NCBI GenBank assembly: GCA_030647125.1
Contig: JAUSKC010000011.1
Span: 1 to 59,217 of the forward strand
DNA: 59,217 bases
Direction: 5' to 3'
DNA from: Nanobdellota archaeon
GTDB lineage: Archaea; Nanobdellota; Nanobdellia; Pacearchaeales; GW2011-AR1
Under the pieces are notes generated by a model. It saw only the letters and a program-made list of their open reading frames with translations. It had not been told where the DNA came from and did not search any database. Below are positions 18,552 through 24,623 of this stretch, in pieces; the stretch's first letter is position 1; the number at the start of each line of letters is the position of its first letter. Position numbers and translations under genes: made by a program.

Positions 18552-18881
18552 TTATTTCAAAATAGAATTTATTCTCGTTTTCAAAGAGTCCTCATTCTGA
18601 AGCCCAACAATTCGGCCAAACTCTCCTCCATCTTTGAAAATTATTAAACATGGAATTCCTCCAACATTGAATTGCTGCGCGTATTTTAAATTTTCTTCAA
18701 CATTTATTTTAGCAAAGTTTAATTTGCTTTTCATTTCCTCACTTACATCCTTAAAAATAGGAGCCATCATCCTGCACGGCCCGCACCATGCAGCCCAGAA
18801 ATCAACAATTGTGGGTTTCTTATTCTGAAGAACTTCTTTCTTAAAATTATCATCGTTTAACTCTTTCACTGTCATAATCAA
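18552..18881 (-). CDS. Thioredoxin
   Basis: VDFWAAWCGPCRMMAPIF and GGIPCLIIFKDG. Confidence 0.95.
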   Translation of the reverse strand: MIMTVKELNDDNFKKEVLQNKKPTIVDFWAAWCGPCRMMAPIFKDVSEEMKSKLNFAKINVEENLKYAQQFNVGGIPCLIIFKDGGEFGRIVGLQNEDSLKTRINSILK

Positions 18882-18971
18882 AAAAAATTCCCTAGTTATT
18901 TAAATGTTACGAAGTGAAGAAGAAAAAGTGAAACAAAACATTTTTAACTTGTTTTTCGTCTATTTTAATAT

Positions 18972-19104
18972 GGACCTGTAGTCTAACGGTAGAACTATTC
19001 GTTTACACGCGAAGGACACCTAACGGTTTCCTACCGCACTATCTTCCCTTAAGATAGTCAAGCTAAAAACCGAATGAGCCGAGGTTCAACTCCTCGCAGG
19101 TCCA
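18972..19104 (+). tRNA. tRNA-Val(TAC) with about 62-nt intron (19008-19069)
   Basis: Acceptor GGACCTG/CAGGTCC, anticodon stem ATTCG/CGAAT, T-arm CGAGG-TTCAACT-CCTCG, A73. Confidence 0.85.
19025..19048 (+). repeat. Intron block ggtttcctaccgcactatcttccc shared with tRNA-Gly intron
   Basis: 23/24 identical to 22865-22888. Confidence 0.95.
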
Positions 19105-19138
19105 TATAATTTAAAAAGAAGAGTGGCATCGAAATAAT

Positions 19139-20629
19139 ATGAAAAGAGGGATAATAATTTTATTACTTCTAAGCATTTTATTAATCTCACCCTTAATTCA
19201 AGCCCAAACCTACTCTGGATTTAATAGGTTTAGTGATAATGTTAAATTATTTTTTTCTAATGGGGATAACAAAGTTAAATTAGCTTTAGAAATAAGAGAA
19301 AAAGAAGTAAATTCTGCTTTAGAAAACATAGAGAATGGAAATACCGAGAATGTGGTTAAAAATCTTGATAAAGCTCGAGATAAGCTTAAAATTGTTCAGG
19401 AGAAAATATCTTTAAATAATTCTGAGGAAGTTAAAAAAAGTGTTGAAAAGATAAAAGAAAAGATTAACAAAGAAAATCTTTCAGAAGAATTTAAGGAGTA
19501 TAAATTGGAGGAAGAAAAAACACAGCTGACAGCAGAACTTACTCTAAAAACTTTTGAATATTGCAAGGCATTAGCTCAAGAAGATTATAGTTTGATGTTA
19601 AAAGAGGAGAAATGTAATCCAGAAACAGCTACTCCAGGGCTTGAAAAAGAATTGAAAGAATTAAAGAATATTCAGGAGAAATCATTTGTTCAATTAATGC
19701 TAAATATTAGAAGTTGCATAGATGACCCCGGAACATGTAATTGTGAAGAAAATACAGATATTGCTCAAAAAGCAAAATGTGAAAAACTGGTTGCTCTTGC
19801 AATTAAATGTGAATATAAAGATGATGAAACTGCTTGTGATGAATTAGAATCTATAAAACCCAAAAAAGGAGATAGTTTTGCAGAAAGTTTTGTTCCTGAT
19901 TTTTTAAAGAATTTGTTTAAAGAAAAAGATTATATGATTGGTTATGGTATAAATCATTCATGTGGGGTTCCTGAAGAGTGCTGGGATGAGAATGATAAAC
20001 CAGAATGTAAGCAATATGATTATTTAAAAGAAACAAAAGATGATTGGGATGAATATGGAAATTATATAGGAACAAAAAAAGAATGCGGCACTAAAGGACC
20101 AATACCCACAATGCAAGAATCAATTCCTCAATGTTTTGAGGGAGATAAATTTCTAGAAGAAAAATGTGGCAAGATTACTATGGTTGAAAACGAGGATGGT
20201 TTAATAAATTATATTATTGGAAAGGAAATTGATAATATTATAGAAGAATTTGAAAATAAATCTGAGCAACATACTATTGATGTTAATGGAACAAAGGGGC
20301 AAACTATGATTAATGAAATAAAAGAAGAAATTAATCAAATAAATAAGCAGATTGTAAATATAACATATGCTGCCGGGACTGGTCCGGGAGGGGAATCAGG
20401 AGTTGTTATAGAAGGAGATGAAGAAGGAGTCAAAACAGGGGATAATAATGGGGATGATGGTTTGAAACCTGAAGTTAAAACCTCTACTTCTGGAGATGGA
20501 ACTAATGAGAATGAAGTTGTTGAAGATGGAAACAAAAATGAGGTTAATTATGATCCTTCAATAACTAATGCACCTGGAGACACTATAGATGACCCAGATG
20601 GAGAACCTACAGAGACTATTAATCCATAA
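19139..20629 (+). CDS. Secreted Cys-containing coiled-coil protein of unknown function
   Basis: Signal peptide, helical middle region, Asp/Gly/Thr-rich C-terminus. Confidence 0.6.
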   Translation: MKRGIIILLLLSILLISPLIQAQTYSGFNRFSDNVKLFFSNGDNKVKLALEIREKEVNSALENIENGNTENVVKNLDKARDKLKIVQEKISLNNSEEVKKSVEKIKEKINKENLSEEFKEYKLEEEKTQLTAELTLKTFEYCKALAQEDYSLMLKEEKCNPETATPGLEKELKELKNIQEKSFVQLMLNIRSCIDDPGTCNCEENTDIAQKAKCEKLVALAIKCEYKDDETACDELESIKPKKGDSFAESFVPDFLKNLFKEKDYMIGYGINHSCGVPEECWDENDKPECKQYDYLKETKDDWDEYGNYIGTKKECGTKGPIPTMQESIPQCFEGDKFLEEKCGKITMVENEDGLINYIIGKEIDNIIEEFENKSEQHTIDVNGTKGQTMINEIKEEINQINKQIVNITYAAGTGPGGESGVVIEGDEEGVKTGDNNGDDGLKPEVKTSTSGDGTNENEVVEDGNKNEVNYDPSITNAPGDTIDDPDGEPTETINP

Positions 20630-20652
20630 AATAGTTTGATCTACCTAAATCA

Positions 20653-21279
20653 ATGAAAAAGAGAAGTATAATAAAAAAAGACATAAAAATTGTAGAGAAA
20701 GAATTGGGGTTGGTTGAAAAAAGAATATGGAGATGGGTTTTTCATTTTCCATACAAAAAACTTTTTATCCTAATAGTTTTAGCAATACTTGCATACATTA
20801 TTTTTAGAAATCCTGAAGTTCAAAGTTTCGTTTCTTCTTTGGGCTCATTAAAATATCTTGGAATTTTTATAGCAGGAATGCTTTTTACATTTGGATTTAC
20901 GACGCCTTTTGCAGTTGGTTTTTTTATAATCCTAAATCCGTCTAACCCTTTTCTTGTAGCAATTATAGGGGGAATAGGGGCGCTATTGGGAGACCTTTTA
21001 ATTTTCTCTTTTATAAGATTTAGTTTTATGGATGAATTTAAACGTCTTGAAAAAACAAGAGTTATAATGTCTCTAAGAAAAGAAATGAAATTACATCTTA
21101 GCCATAGAATAAGATTATACACTTTGTACACTCTTGCAGGAATTATTATTGCCTCCCCTCTTCCTGATGAAGCTGGAGTCATAATGCTTGCAGGTCTCAC
21201 CCATATTAAAATAAAAATAATGGCTGTTATAAGTTTTACATTCAATACTTTAGGAATACTTATAATGTGTTTGATATAG
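20653..21279 (+). CDS. Polytopic membrane protein
   Basis: Several TM segments; possibly VTT/DedA-like, not certain. Confidence 0.5.
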   Translation: MKKRSIIKKDIKIVEKELGLVEKRIWRWVFHFPYKKLFILIVLAILAYIIFRNPEVQSFVSSLGSLKYLGIFIAGMLFTFGFTTPFAVGFFIILNPSNPFLVAIIGGIGALLGDLLIFSFIRFSFMDEFKRLEKTRVIMSLRKEMKLHLSHRIRLYTLYTLAGIIIASPLPDEAGVIMLAGLTHIKIKIMAVISFTFNTLGILIMCLI

Positions 21280-21380
21280 GCCTTAAAAAAATGAATAAAA
21301 AAGAAATCTCTAATGGGGTGGTGCATAAAGCGCCGGAGGATTTACCAGTTCGTTTCTCTTCAAAGTTAAATACCAAACAA

Positions 21381-21854
21381 CTACACACACTTACTTTTTT
21401 TAAACACAAAATAAGTTGGGATATAAAGTGTTATGAAATGATTTACCATATTATATAAATCCCATCTCAAAGCATAATATCCAGACAGCATATAACGAAC
21501 TTCTATAAGAATTACTATAATCAACGTAAAAGCCAAGACCTTTGCTTGAAGATTCTTTATTCTTTTTATTAAAAAAAATAACAAAGAACCCATTACTGTC
21601 GTTCCTGCAATCTTTCCCATAGCATACCAGAATAAAGGGGTAGTTGAAATAAACTTGAAGGCCTCTGGAATTGGATAATAATATATCTCAAGGGGCTCAT
21701 AAAAAGCATGAACAAGAGTATCAAGTAAAGTAAATACTCCAACAATAACTAAAAGCCATAAAAAGAATTTCCAAAATCTCTTTTTAGGTTCCCTCTTCTC
21801 CATAATGTAAACATCAATTTTAAGTATAAAAGGTTTTTTATTTACACCGAACAT
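21381..21854 (-). CDS. Polytopic membrane protein
   Basis: About four TM segments. Confidence 0.5.
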   Translation of the reverse strand: MFGVNKKPFILKIDVYIMEKREPKKRFWKFFLWLLVIVGVFTLLDTLVHAFYEPLEIYYYPIPEAFKFISTTPLFWYAMGKIAGTTVMGSLLFFLIKRIKNLQAKVLAFTLIIVILIEVRYMLSGYYALRWDLYNMVNHFITLYIPTYFVFKKSKCV

Positions 21855-21882
21855 AATAAAGTTGTTCTAAGAAAATTAAAAA

Positions 21883-22158
21883 CTATTTCTTGAATTTTCC
21901 AATGAGCCAACTTATAAAAGCTCCAATTAAAGTAATAAAAATTATTGGAAGTATATATGCTTCATAGCCCCCATAATATGGCATTAAATTATGTATCTCT
22001 AATATAATTTTACAAACACCGGTTGGAGTAAAGGAACATTGCATTAAAGATAGTACAAACAAAATAGTGAAAGGAATAGAAACAATCAATCCAATCACCC
22101 CACCCTTCAACCAACTCGGCCAATCTTTCCAACCCATAATATAATTAATAAAATACAA
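21883..22158 (-). CDS. Small membrane protein
   Basis: Two hydrophobic segments. Confidence 0.5.
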   Translation of the reverse strand: MYFINYIMGWKDWPSWLKGGVIGLIVSIPFTILFVLSLMQCSFTPTGVCKIILEIHNLMPYYGGYEAYILPIIFITLIGAFISWLIGKFKK

Positions 22159-22290
22159 TTTAAATATCTATCTAAATCTTGCATAAAAAGTGTTTAATAA
22201 AAAAAACAATAATGCTATACTTGTTTACACAAAGTAGGTTTTTACTTTTAATATACAAATTTTTAAAAACTTCAATCTCTTTGAATTTCT

Positions 22291-22536
22291 ATGAACATAA
22301 ACTCTGGATCGGGTTCTGCAAGAGGAGGCTATGGTGGAGCAGATCAAGATCCAGATGATTGGGTGGATAGAGAGGAGGAAAGAGCCGAACCAAATCAAAC
22401 AAATTCTCTTCCTAAAGAAAAAAAGCTAGCAATTCTAGAAAAAATCATAATCAGCTCGGCTGTAACTGCTGGAGTTATCGCTCTTGGCGCTTCGGTTTAC
22501 TATGCTGGAAGAGGAATTTATAATTATTTTAATTAA
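22291..22536 (+). CDS. Small TM protein
   Basis: 81 aa with one C-terminal TM. Confidence 0.45.
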   Translation: MNINSGSGSARGGYGGADQDPDDWVDREEERAEPNQTNSLPKEKKLAILEKIIISSAVTAGVIALGASVYYAGRGIYNYFN

Positions 22537-22578
22537 ATCTTTAGTAAGTTTTTTAAACATAAATTATCAAATTCTAAA

Positions 22579-22773
22579 ATGAAAATAACTTGTTTCGACG
22601 ACGAGATTATCAAAAGAATAGACACGCTAAATAAAAAGGTAAAAACCCCTAGTTATAGGATGAGAATGAGAAATGCTGAAATTGTTGATCTAGTTGACGT
22701 CACTCAAGAGAGTTTTCTCCCTTATTCCGAGCCTGCGAGGGTCTATGAAATTCATGAATGGGCAAGACAATAA
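22579..22773 (+). CDS. Hypothetical small protein
   Basis: 64-aa ORF. Confidence 0.4.
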   Translation: MKITCFDDEIIKRIDTLNKKVKTPSYRMRMRNAEIVDLVDVTQESFLPYSEPARVYEIHEWARQ

Positions 22774-22813
22774 GATTTTAAACTATTCTTTTACTTTATT
22801 TTAAGTATTCAAA

Positions 22814-22954
22814 GCGCCGCTGGTTTATCGGTAGAATATCTCGTTGCCAAGCGCAGGAAACCAAGGTTTCCTACCGCACTACCTTCCCCTTTTCGGCAAG
22901 GCAGAACGCAAACGCAAAGACGAGGTGAGCCGAGTTCGACTCTCGGGTGGCGCA
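22814..22954 (+). tRNA. tRNA-Gly(GCC) with about 70-nt intron (22850-22919)
   Basis: Acceptor GCGCCGC/GTGGCGC, anticodon stem TCTCG/CGAGG, T-arm CCGAG-TTCGACT-CTCGG, A73. Confidence 0.85.
22865..22888 (+). repeat. Intron block ggtttcctaccgcactaccttccc shared with tRNA-Val intron
   Basis: 23/24 identical to 19025-19048. Confidence 0.95.
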
Positions 22955-23033
22955 TACTATTTTAGCCGTTCATGCCGAACCATAATTAAATGTTCATCAA
23001 AAACTTTATAAGTAAAAAACATCATTTGTTACC

Positions 23034-24623
23034 ATGACAGAAAACGACAAACCACGAAAATCTGAAGATAAGGACTCCATAGAAGGAATTCCTGAAATGC
23101 ACATTGAAAAATATTCTAATAATAAGAAAATAATTAATGAAATGAACGAGCCTCAAAAAGAAATTGACAAGACAAAAAAAGAGCTTGACAAATTGAAAGC
23201 ATGGATACTTAAAAAATTTCCATTTACTCAATCAATAAGCATTTTGCCTCCTCAAGTCATACCGCACTTTGTTCAGGAAGAAGAAATCCCAAAAGAGGCC
23301 GAAAAATACATGCAAATCTTTATGATTGTTCCTGAAGAGAAATTCAAAGAAATCCCAAAAATAAAAAAAGAAATTATTGTAGAGCTTGAAAAGATAAAAG
23401 AAAAAACATGGTTGCAAATTAAAACTCCCGTCGATCTTTGGGAAATTTGCTTTGACAGCAAGTTTGAATTAATTGCCGGAATTTCTTTGTCAATGCCTTT
23501 GCACGACACTGGAATTTTACAAGGCCTAAGAGTTGCAGAAATTCATAAGTCACTTGTTTTGCAAAAGTTCGAAAAGTATGTCGTCTCTTACGTTCTTGGT
23601 GGAAGCCTAATTCGTGGTGACGTTACAAAAGAATCGGACGTTGATGTCTTCGTCGTTATAAACGATACCGACGTGAAAAGAATGCCGCGTTTGGAATTAA
23701 AAGAACGTCTAAGAGGAATAATCTACCAATATATAGCTGAAGCAACAGCTTTGGCAGGAGTTAAGCAAAATGTTTTGAACGTGCAGGTCTATTTGCTGAC
23801 CGACTTTTGGGAGTCAGTTAAAGACGCTAACCCTGTAATGTTTACTTTCATACGTGATGGAGTTCCTATTTATGATAGAGGAACTTTTATGCCATGGAAA
23901 GCGCTTTTGAAAATGGGCAAATTAAAGCCATCGCCGGAAGCAATTGATATGTTTATGTCTATGGGAGATAAGACAGTTAAAAGAGCAAAATTGGCGTTGC
24001 TGGATATTGTTATTCACGATATTTATTGGAGTGTTTTGACTCCTGCCCAAGCAATGTTTATGCTTAATGGGTTGCCGCCACCAACTCACAAAGAAATTTT
24101 GCAGGGCGCTTTCAGAAAAGAATTCGTAGAAAAAGAAAAAATGATTGAACCAAAATATGCAAAAATCTTAGAAGAAATCGTCGGAATTTACAAGGACTAC
24201 GAGCACGAAAAGATTAAAGAAATAAAAGGCGCAAAAGTTGACCAGCTCATAAAAGATACAGAGGACTTCCTTAAAAGAATGGAAACATTAAGAAAACAAA
24301 TTGACAAGCGCGCGCAAGAAAAGACAGTAGAACAAATTAACAAAGACATATTTGATTTGCTTAAACAAGTTACAGAAGAGAAAAATCAAAATGAAATTAT
24401 AAAATCATTTGAAAAGAACTTTGTAAAAAAAGGAAAATTCACAAATCAACACTTAAAGATACTTCATGAAATTATAAAAGTTAAGCAAGAATTCAAAAAA
24501 GGAAAATCAAACGCGCACAAAGTTGATGACGCGCGAAAGGGTGCATCAATCTTAATTAATAGTTTGACTGAATATCTGCAGAGAAAAGATATGGCATTAA
24601 TGGAAAAAAAGAGTGGGAATTAA
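23034..24623 (+). CDS. Nucleotidyltransferase-domain protein with long helical C-terminus
   Basis: LGGSLIRGDVTKESDVDVFVVI is the Pol-beta NTase motif. Confidence 0.75.
   Translation: MTENDKPRKSEDKDSIEGIPEMHIEKYSNNKKIINEMNEPQKEIDKTKKELDKLKAWILKKFPFTQSISILPPQVIPHFVQEEEIPKEAEKYMQIFMIVPEEKFKEIPKIKKEIIVELEKIKEKTWLQIKTPVDLWEICFDSKFELIAGISLSMPLHDTGILQGLRVAEIHKSLVLQKFEKYVVSYVLGGSLIRGDVTKESDVDVFVVINDTDVKRMPRLELKERLRGIIYQYIAEATALAGVKQNVLNVQVYLLTDFWESVKDANPVMFTFIRDGVPIYDRGTFMPWKALLKMGKLKPSPEAIDMFMSMGDKTVKRAKLALLDIVIHDIYWSVLTPAQAMFMLNGLPPPTHKEILQGAFRKEFVEKEKMIEPKYAKILEEIVGIYKDYEHEKIKEIKGAKVDQLIKDTEDFLKRMETLRKQIDKRAQEKTVEQINKDIFDLLKQVTEEKNQNEIIKSFEKNFVKKGKFTNQHLKILHEIIKVKQEFKKGKSNAHKVDDARKGASILINSLTEYLQRKDMALMEKKSGN

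Follow-up and report, generated by a model that had tools for sequence, protein, structure and literature searches.

Introns shared by tRNA-Val and tRNA-Gly in a Pacearchaeales genome as probable copies of a short, hairpin-forming mobile element

How do two different tRNA genes of one archaeal genome come to possess what is essentially the same intron? The question is raised by a 59,217-nucleotide stretch of a Nanobdellota archaeon (GTDB order Pacearchaeales; GenBank assembly GCA_030647125.1, contig JAUSKC010000011.1), referred to here as the window. Two intron-bearing tRNA genes are found in it, tRNA-Val(UAC) and tRNA-Gly(GCC), both on the + strand and 3.8 kb apart. The answer argued for here is that Val and Gly carry the same intron because each holds a copy of the same hairpin repeat. 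That is, the block shared by the two introns is probably, in each, a copy of a short (~40-49 nt), hairpin-forming, non-autonomous mobile element of one Pacearchaeota family.

Both genes are recognized as matches to the Rfam tRNA model (RF00005) with an insertion at the anticodon, i.e., at 18972-19104 (45.7 bits; Val) and 22814-22954 (35.7 bits; Gly). Neither was detected by ARAGORN in default mode, and an Rfam scan of 18700-23100, even at E <= 1, returned the tRNA model alone and no other family. The Rfam matches and junction analysis together place the Val 5' exon at 18972-19007 and its 3' exon at 19070-19104, with a 62-nt intron (19008-19069) between, and the Gly exons at 22814-22849 and 22920-22954, flanking a 70-nt intron (22850-22919). 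Both introns lie at canonical position 37/38. Junctions were judged by the bulge-helix-bulge (BHB) motif, that is, an extension of the anticodon stem across the exon-intron junctions in which a 4-bp helix separates two 3-nt bulges. Both introns display this motif in canonical form, as archaeal BHB tRNA introns do: all of the central pairs (4/4) and of the anticodon-stem pairs (5/5) are formed. For Val the stem is ATTCG/CGAAT and the helix TTTA/TAAA, with cuts between CA and C and between AA and C; for Gly these are TCTCG/CGAGG and TTGC/GCAA, with cuts between CA and A and between AG and A. The BHB-constrained fold lies above the unconstrained minimum by 2.3 kcal/mol (Val) and 1.4 kcal/mol (Gly), and the fold of the whole Val pre-tRNA has z = -3.99. 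A single splicing endonuclease gene (tRNA_int_endo, 104.7 bits, 181-aa frame) was detected in the same genome; an EndA of this length would be consistent with a strict-BHB enzyme, its oligomer type being read from size only.

What the introns most obviously share is a 24-nt block, GGTTTCCTACCGCACTATCTTCCC at 19025-19048 in Val versus GGTTTCCTACCGCACTACCTTCCC at 22865-22888 in Gly, which is identical at 23 of 24 positions and for which, with up to three mismatches allowed, no further match is present in the window (shuffled expectation 0.00). Upstream of this block the two introns agree at 34/40 positions with one 2-nt gap, this being the 5' arm of the same hairpin, and identity then stops at the end of the element, before the intron 3' end. 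The exons share no more than ordinary tRNA similarity, and gene conversion that includes exons therefore does not account for the shared block. A preliminary description of this DNA had given the block, the limits of the Val intron, the upstream similarity and the differing exons correctly. It had proposed from these that the introns are homologous and had spread between isotypes, a proposal that exon-inclusive gene conversion, or absence of the block from relatives' introns, would have undone.

The unit which is shared is shorter than either intron and begins 0-1 nt past the 5' splice site. The Val copy, GCGAAGGACACCTAACGGTTTCCTACCGCACTATCTTCCCTTAAGATAG, occupies 19009-19057 and forms two hairpins, as delimited by fold, by covariation in relatives and by identity with a further copy described below; the Gly copy, GCGCAGGAAACCAAGGTTTCCTACCGCACTACCTTCCC, occupies 22851-22888, as delimited by sequence comparison and a covariance model (R1, 63.5 bits). 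The genome itself (640 kb, 88.6% complete) contains three copies, versus zero in a reversed-pattern control. The third, missed by the preliminary description, is found on another contig, in the 16S-23S spacer, 4 nt past tRNA-Ala and outside any tRNA. It is identical to the Val copy at 49/49 positions and diverges beyond them. Five other introns of the genome (L100-L104) are without the element.

Folded, the element is one bulged hairpin, GCG-A-AGGAMACC...GGTTTCCT-AC-CGC, followed by a short linker, ACTA, and often by a second hairpin; its single-stranded tail is nearly invariant. When 37 strong copies are aligned, 91.5% of the hairpin's cells are paired, and both sides have changed in 6 of 11 pairs. 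Double-change cells number 15, where shuffles give 1.7 and slid controls no more than 8, the alignment having been made without the structure in hand, although the structure itself was derived from the same copies. The basal three pairs vary jointly (GCG/CGC, GCA/TGC, GCC/GGC, ACC/GGT), and in two copies the upper stem is exchanged for TGGAGAAC/GTTCTCC(G). It may be added that an AAGG loop is accompanied by a terminal T after CTTCC in 13/14 cases, while other loops go with C or A in 32/42 (Fisher p = 7e-6 over all element copies, uncorrected for relatedness).

How widely the element occurs was considered across species genomes, its carriers being metagenome-assembled genomes (MAGs); here G numbers denote genomes and L numbers the sequence stretches or loci compared. 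The exact 21-nt core is present in 13 stretches among 85,462 species genomes, in Pacearchaeota/Nanoarchaeota MAGs only. It has no match in 2.9 million viral contigs, and a phage or virus source was rejected on that basis. The covariance model, a check that the preliminary description had called for, was built from 11 copies and matches in 86 of the 207 genomes of the order. Within those 207, scores of at least 40 bits are confined to the window's GTDB family, and sister families possess weaker look-alikes with the same layout, a layout from which these weaker sequences were inferred to be of the same mobile family. Across the phylum, matches at E <= 1e-4 occur in 11/285 genomes, all of the window's family. 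One contig stretch appears identically in two MAGs of different genera (L005 in G032, L040 in G108), i.e., as cross-binning, and is therefore counted once.

Inside tRNA introns, about 32 strong copies were examined, from tRNAs of 13 amino-acid identities, and all are in sense orientation and at canonical 37/38. The isotypes, with relatives' anticodons read by eye from sequence, are Val, Gly (GCC, CCC), Leu (CAA, UAA), Thr, Asn, Ser(GCU), Gln, Arg (UCG, GCG), Ile, Lys, His, Asp and Trp. A full canonical BHB (4/4 and 5/5) is seen in 24 of 29 copies scored, with the element starting 0-1 nt past the 5' splice site in most. The block, that is, is present in relatives' introns, including those of other isotypes, and both the homology and the spread that had been proposed are supported by this. 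Here, as in transposition of the Thermoproteales type, one genome can hold almost the same intron sequence in tRNAs of different isotypes. Several tRNAs with UUGC or UUGU loops (Gly-GCC, Ser-GCU, His) possess in common, in addition, the intron 3' ends ACGCAAAG/GCGCAAAG. Antisense copies at tRNA genes number two, both of the weaker type: L060 lies within a predicted tRNA intron, and L053 is antisense only with regard to an adjacent reverse-complement tRNA-like sequence. As a separate observation, at L010/L026 of G023, from 1501 onward, a 3' half tRNA follows a hairpin of which just the 3' half is present; a trans-spliced partner was considered, and no 5' half was found with the pattern used.

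Presence or absence of the element can differ precisely between related species. In one genus (g66, represented by ten genomes), the intron is variably present at six tRNA loci, which have exact empty sites, i.e., Ile, Ser, Gly(CCC), Gly(GCC), Gln and Arg, as seen with BLAST of element-bearing tRNA genes against congeners with contiguous exons and confirmed by reading the sequences. For tRNA-Ser, the exons being identical, G104 has ...TTGCTAA[75 nt]ATCCGGG... versus intron-free ...TTGCTAAATCCGGG... in G102; for tRNA-Ile, exons again identical, G105 has a 62 nt intron versus none in G104 and G107. As to the window's own genes, relatives within the same family have versions without an intron, Gly(GCC) in G001 and G013 and Val in G005. 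On an rpoB tree, the path from absence to presence is the shorter for Ser(GCU) and Gly(GCC), with one gain each. Introns probably are lost in this genus as well, since G109 is without introns that are present in its nearest relatives. In G104 and G106, moreover, the intron of Arg(GCG) measures 24 nt and lacks the element, so that the element may have entered, or have been excised from, an older intron of small size.

Nor is the element limited to introns. In G101 it begins at the base right after the predicted 3' end of the signal recognition particle (SRP) RNA, without a gap, this RNA being an Rfam match (76 bits, E = 3.5e-17) that is under the family's gathering score. In two congeners, G028 and G130, it lies at the same place between rpoB and rpoA', genes identified by reading translations; in G122 it lies 2 nt past tRNA-His; and in G107 and G028 it is found in the spacer before 23S, near the 23S processing BHB and apparently not at it, so that insertion at that BHB was rejected. 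In the vicinity of 23S it may also be noted that the rRNA spans ~3.56-3.59 kb versus a 2,987-position model (L213, 3010-6598; L214, L215), for which reason insertions or introns in these 23S genes are likely.

The start of tRNA-Ser is a recurrent insertion place. Its first 11-14 nt are repeated upstream of the intact gene at L119 (G101), L052 (G186), where they are repeated twice, and L037 (G104), with the element lying between at L119 and L052; at L119, the tRNA's first 13 nt recur beyond the element's far side. Duplications flanking non-intron copies amount to 13 bp at L119, 21 bp at L134, 19-30 bp at L024 and 57-83 bp in G148, with these one-sided duplications mostly flanking weaker-type copies (L134, at a tRNA-Leu 3' end, L024, and several in G148). 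G148 possesses a shorter variant, TTGTAAGAAACCAAGGTTTCTTACCAACTTCCT, with 19 model matches. At several places (L062, L064, L065 and L068 of G148; L079 of G189) an intact gene start follows this variant and a truncated, diverged start of that same gene precedes it. The two copies of the repeated gene starts in G148 differ mostly at third codon positions, a pattern which is not predicted by simple duplication then decay. Two further observations concern G028: a tRNA-Gly 3' end tandemly repeated downstream of its gene (L018), possibly an assembly artefact, and dense tRNA arrays beyond the normal set (C14:26156-27759 and C11:60359-60970), perhaps of a virus or plasmid.

To what, then, may this element be likened? 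Bacterial REP (repetitive extragenic palindromic) elements, or hairpins mobilised by RAYTs (REP-associated tyrosine transposases), are dispersed bulged hairpins flanked on one side by a short, conserved, single-stranded tag. The element described here likewise is a bulged hairpin with a one-sided conserved single-stranded tag and dispersed copies, but its strong copies concentrate in tRNA introns, no Y1/RAYT gene was found in its own genome, and no copy was found next to the Y1 genes of relatives. Closer in setting is the large-scale transposition of tRNA introns reported in 2010 for Thermoproteales, as outlined in PMC4090602 and PMC4033280, with near-same introns across isotypes and recent gain inferred. 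Going by that outline, the preliminary description's statement that archaeal introns are as a rule unrelated between isotypes overlooked this precedent. Similar introns in different isotypes, BHB splicing and inferred recent gain are features in common, whereas here the host is a DPANN Pacearchaeota, the strong intron copies are all at canonical 37/38, and what recurs is a hairpin that makes up only part of the intron and is also found outside tRNAs. In Caldiarchaeum, tRNA-intron gain has been ascribed to integration of a mobile element, a 1.8-kb sequence with a predicted recombinase (Sugahara et al. 2012, PMC3293823). A tRNA 5' fragment is duplicated upstream of the intact gene there, as at L119 and L052, but the element here is 40-80 nt and without a gene. 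The nearest look-alikes outside archaea, as judged by description, are mitochondrial double-hairpin elements and fungal GC clusters, i.e., gene-less palindromes of ~40 nt with sporadic presence and copy-number variation (PMC4478555; Paquin et al. 2000, cited there); these are organellar, however, and not BHB introns of archaeal tRNAs. A literature search with little subscription coverage found no report of such tRNA introns in DPANN/Pacearchaeota. The spread of introns across isotypes is itself known; the lineage, the discrete element and the non-intron copies appear to be new.

Explanations other than a mobile hairpin differ considerably in what they leave unexplained. Chance or assembly artefact is hardly credible: all of the genomes are MAGs and one contig did end up in two bins, but no matches are expected in shuffles, the element recurs in many independent MAGs and its stem has undergone compensatory changes, and for the window pair itself this explanation is already refuted. 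An ancient intron, inherited vertically with tRNA gene conversion and many losses, is improbable. Same-isotype copies across genera are slightly more alike (0.821 vs 0.781, 19 pairs), and the Gly(CCC) and Ile introns of G104, G105 and G106 look homologous along much of their length, but over the six polymorphic loci loss-only descent needs 22 events, versus 12 with gain only and 11 if mixed, which led to rejection of vertical-only descent. Copies outside tRNAs, and exons and flanks that are not co-converted, count against it as well. Unlikely too, though less so, is that copies are retained because they function as a selected small RNA or RNA-protein binding element, e.g., in stable-RNA processing. 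The covarying hairpin, the nearly invariant tail, frequent siting at stable-RNA genes and the orthologous rpoB-rpoA' copies in two species all fit, and a selected intronic RNA function, as had been suggested earlier, is thereby compatible with the covariation. Most tRNAs of the same genomes, however, and the same tRNAs in many congeners, are without the element. Complementarity to its own rRNA extends over at most 9 nt in 16S and 8 nt in 23S, no more than shuffled sequences give, so that the rRNA target this suggestion might have had was not found and an antisense or guide role against own rRNA was rejected, as was a box C/D or H/ACA guide, there being no Rfam match other than to tRNA.

A more serious contender, if still a doubtful one, is reverse splicing of whole introns, in which splicing endonuclease and ligase would place an excised intron into another pre-tRNA's anticodon loop, followed by DNA copying and recombination. 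Fixed position and sense orientation, the element's edge at the 5' splice site, the gapless junction with SRP RNA and the 3' ends common to similar-loop tRNAs, as whole-intron spread between such loops would give, are points for this or for another RNA-level route, i.e., ligation then reverse transcription. Against it, identity stops at the element and not at the intron 3' end, intergenic copies exist, the G028 and G107 spacer copies apparently do not sit at the 23S processing BHB, and two weaker-type copies are antisense. These intergenic and antisense copies, together with one-sided target repeats and several carriers in which no reverse transcriptase was found, favour DNA-level insertion, like that of REPs or miniature inverted-repeat transposable elements (MITEs), as somewhat more likely. 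Of the earlier suggestion of intron transposition, e.g., by reverse splicing, the spread thus holds, whereas ‘intron’ is too narrow a unit, since the moving hairpin also sits outside tRNA introns, and reverse splicing is no more than a possible route.

The mobile-hairpin reading has points against it too. No target-site duplication accompanies the copies in tRNA introns, and the isotype-specific 3' part of each intron lies outside the element, so that insertion alone gives no working BHB. Both gains and losses are needed within g66, and copies do not cluster by genus overall (similarity 0.777 for same genus, different isotype, vs 0.781 where both differ), although a signature common to one genus is seen (about 7-8/17 vs 0/15 by hand count; Fisher p = 0.003-0.008). 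As to machinery, Y1 transposase (PF01797) was not found in the element's own genome or in 10 other of 20 genomes, other transposase families not having been searched, and reverse transcriptase was not found in its own genome, G028, G130, G106 or G107; the MAGs so scanned for either enzyme are incomplete. With Y1 genes patchy and no element beside those of relatives, mobilisation of IS200/IS605 type was rejected; reverse transcriptase as driver was set aside likewise, its occurrence being patchy.

What the element is, nevertheless, is multi-copy and structured, with a fixed place and orientation in the introns of many isotypes, with copies also outside tRNAs, and with precise presence or absence between related species. 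If it is a mobile hairpin, then it would insert into tRNA genes at, or beside, position 37/38, as well as elsewhere. At 37/38 the BHB endonuclease would remove it, the insertion becoming an intron, which, because it is spliced out, would cost little and be tolerated. The intron's 3' part would supply the four isotype-specific bases of the BHB helix, either as a remnant of an older small intron or as selected afterwards. Tentatively, one might go further and see here a class of gene-less double-hairpin elements, new in DPANN archaea, that makes spliceable introns in anticodon loops, moves via RNA splicing and ligation, and lands as well at stable-RNA ends (SRP RNA) and in the rRNA spacer.

As to where tRNA introns come from, a source can be pointed to in this case, namely a discrete element with multiple copies. 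Given such an element, and exact pairs of tRNA genes with and without it in related species, intron gain in archaea becomes testable by sequence and biochemistry. More generally, these observations suggest the presence of active short repeats in uncultured DPANN archaea, whose genomes are very small.
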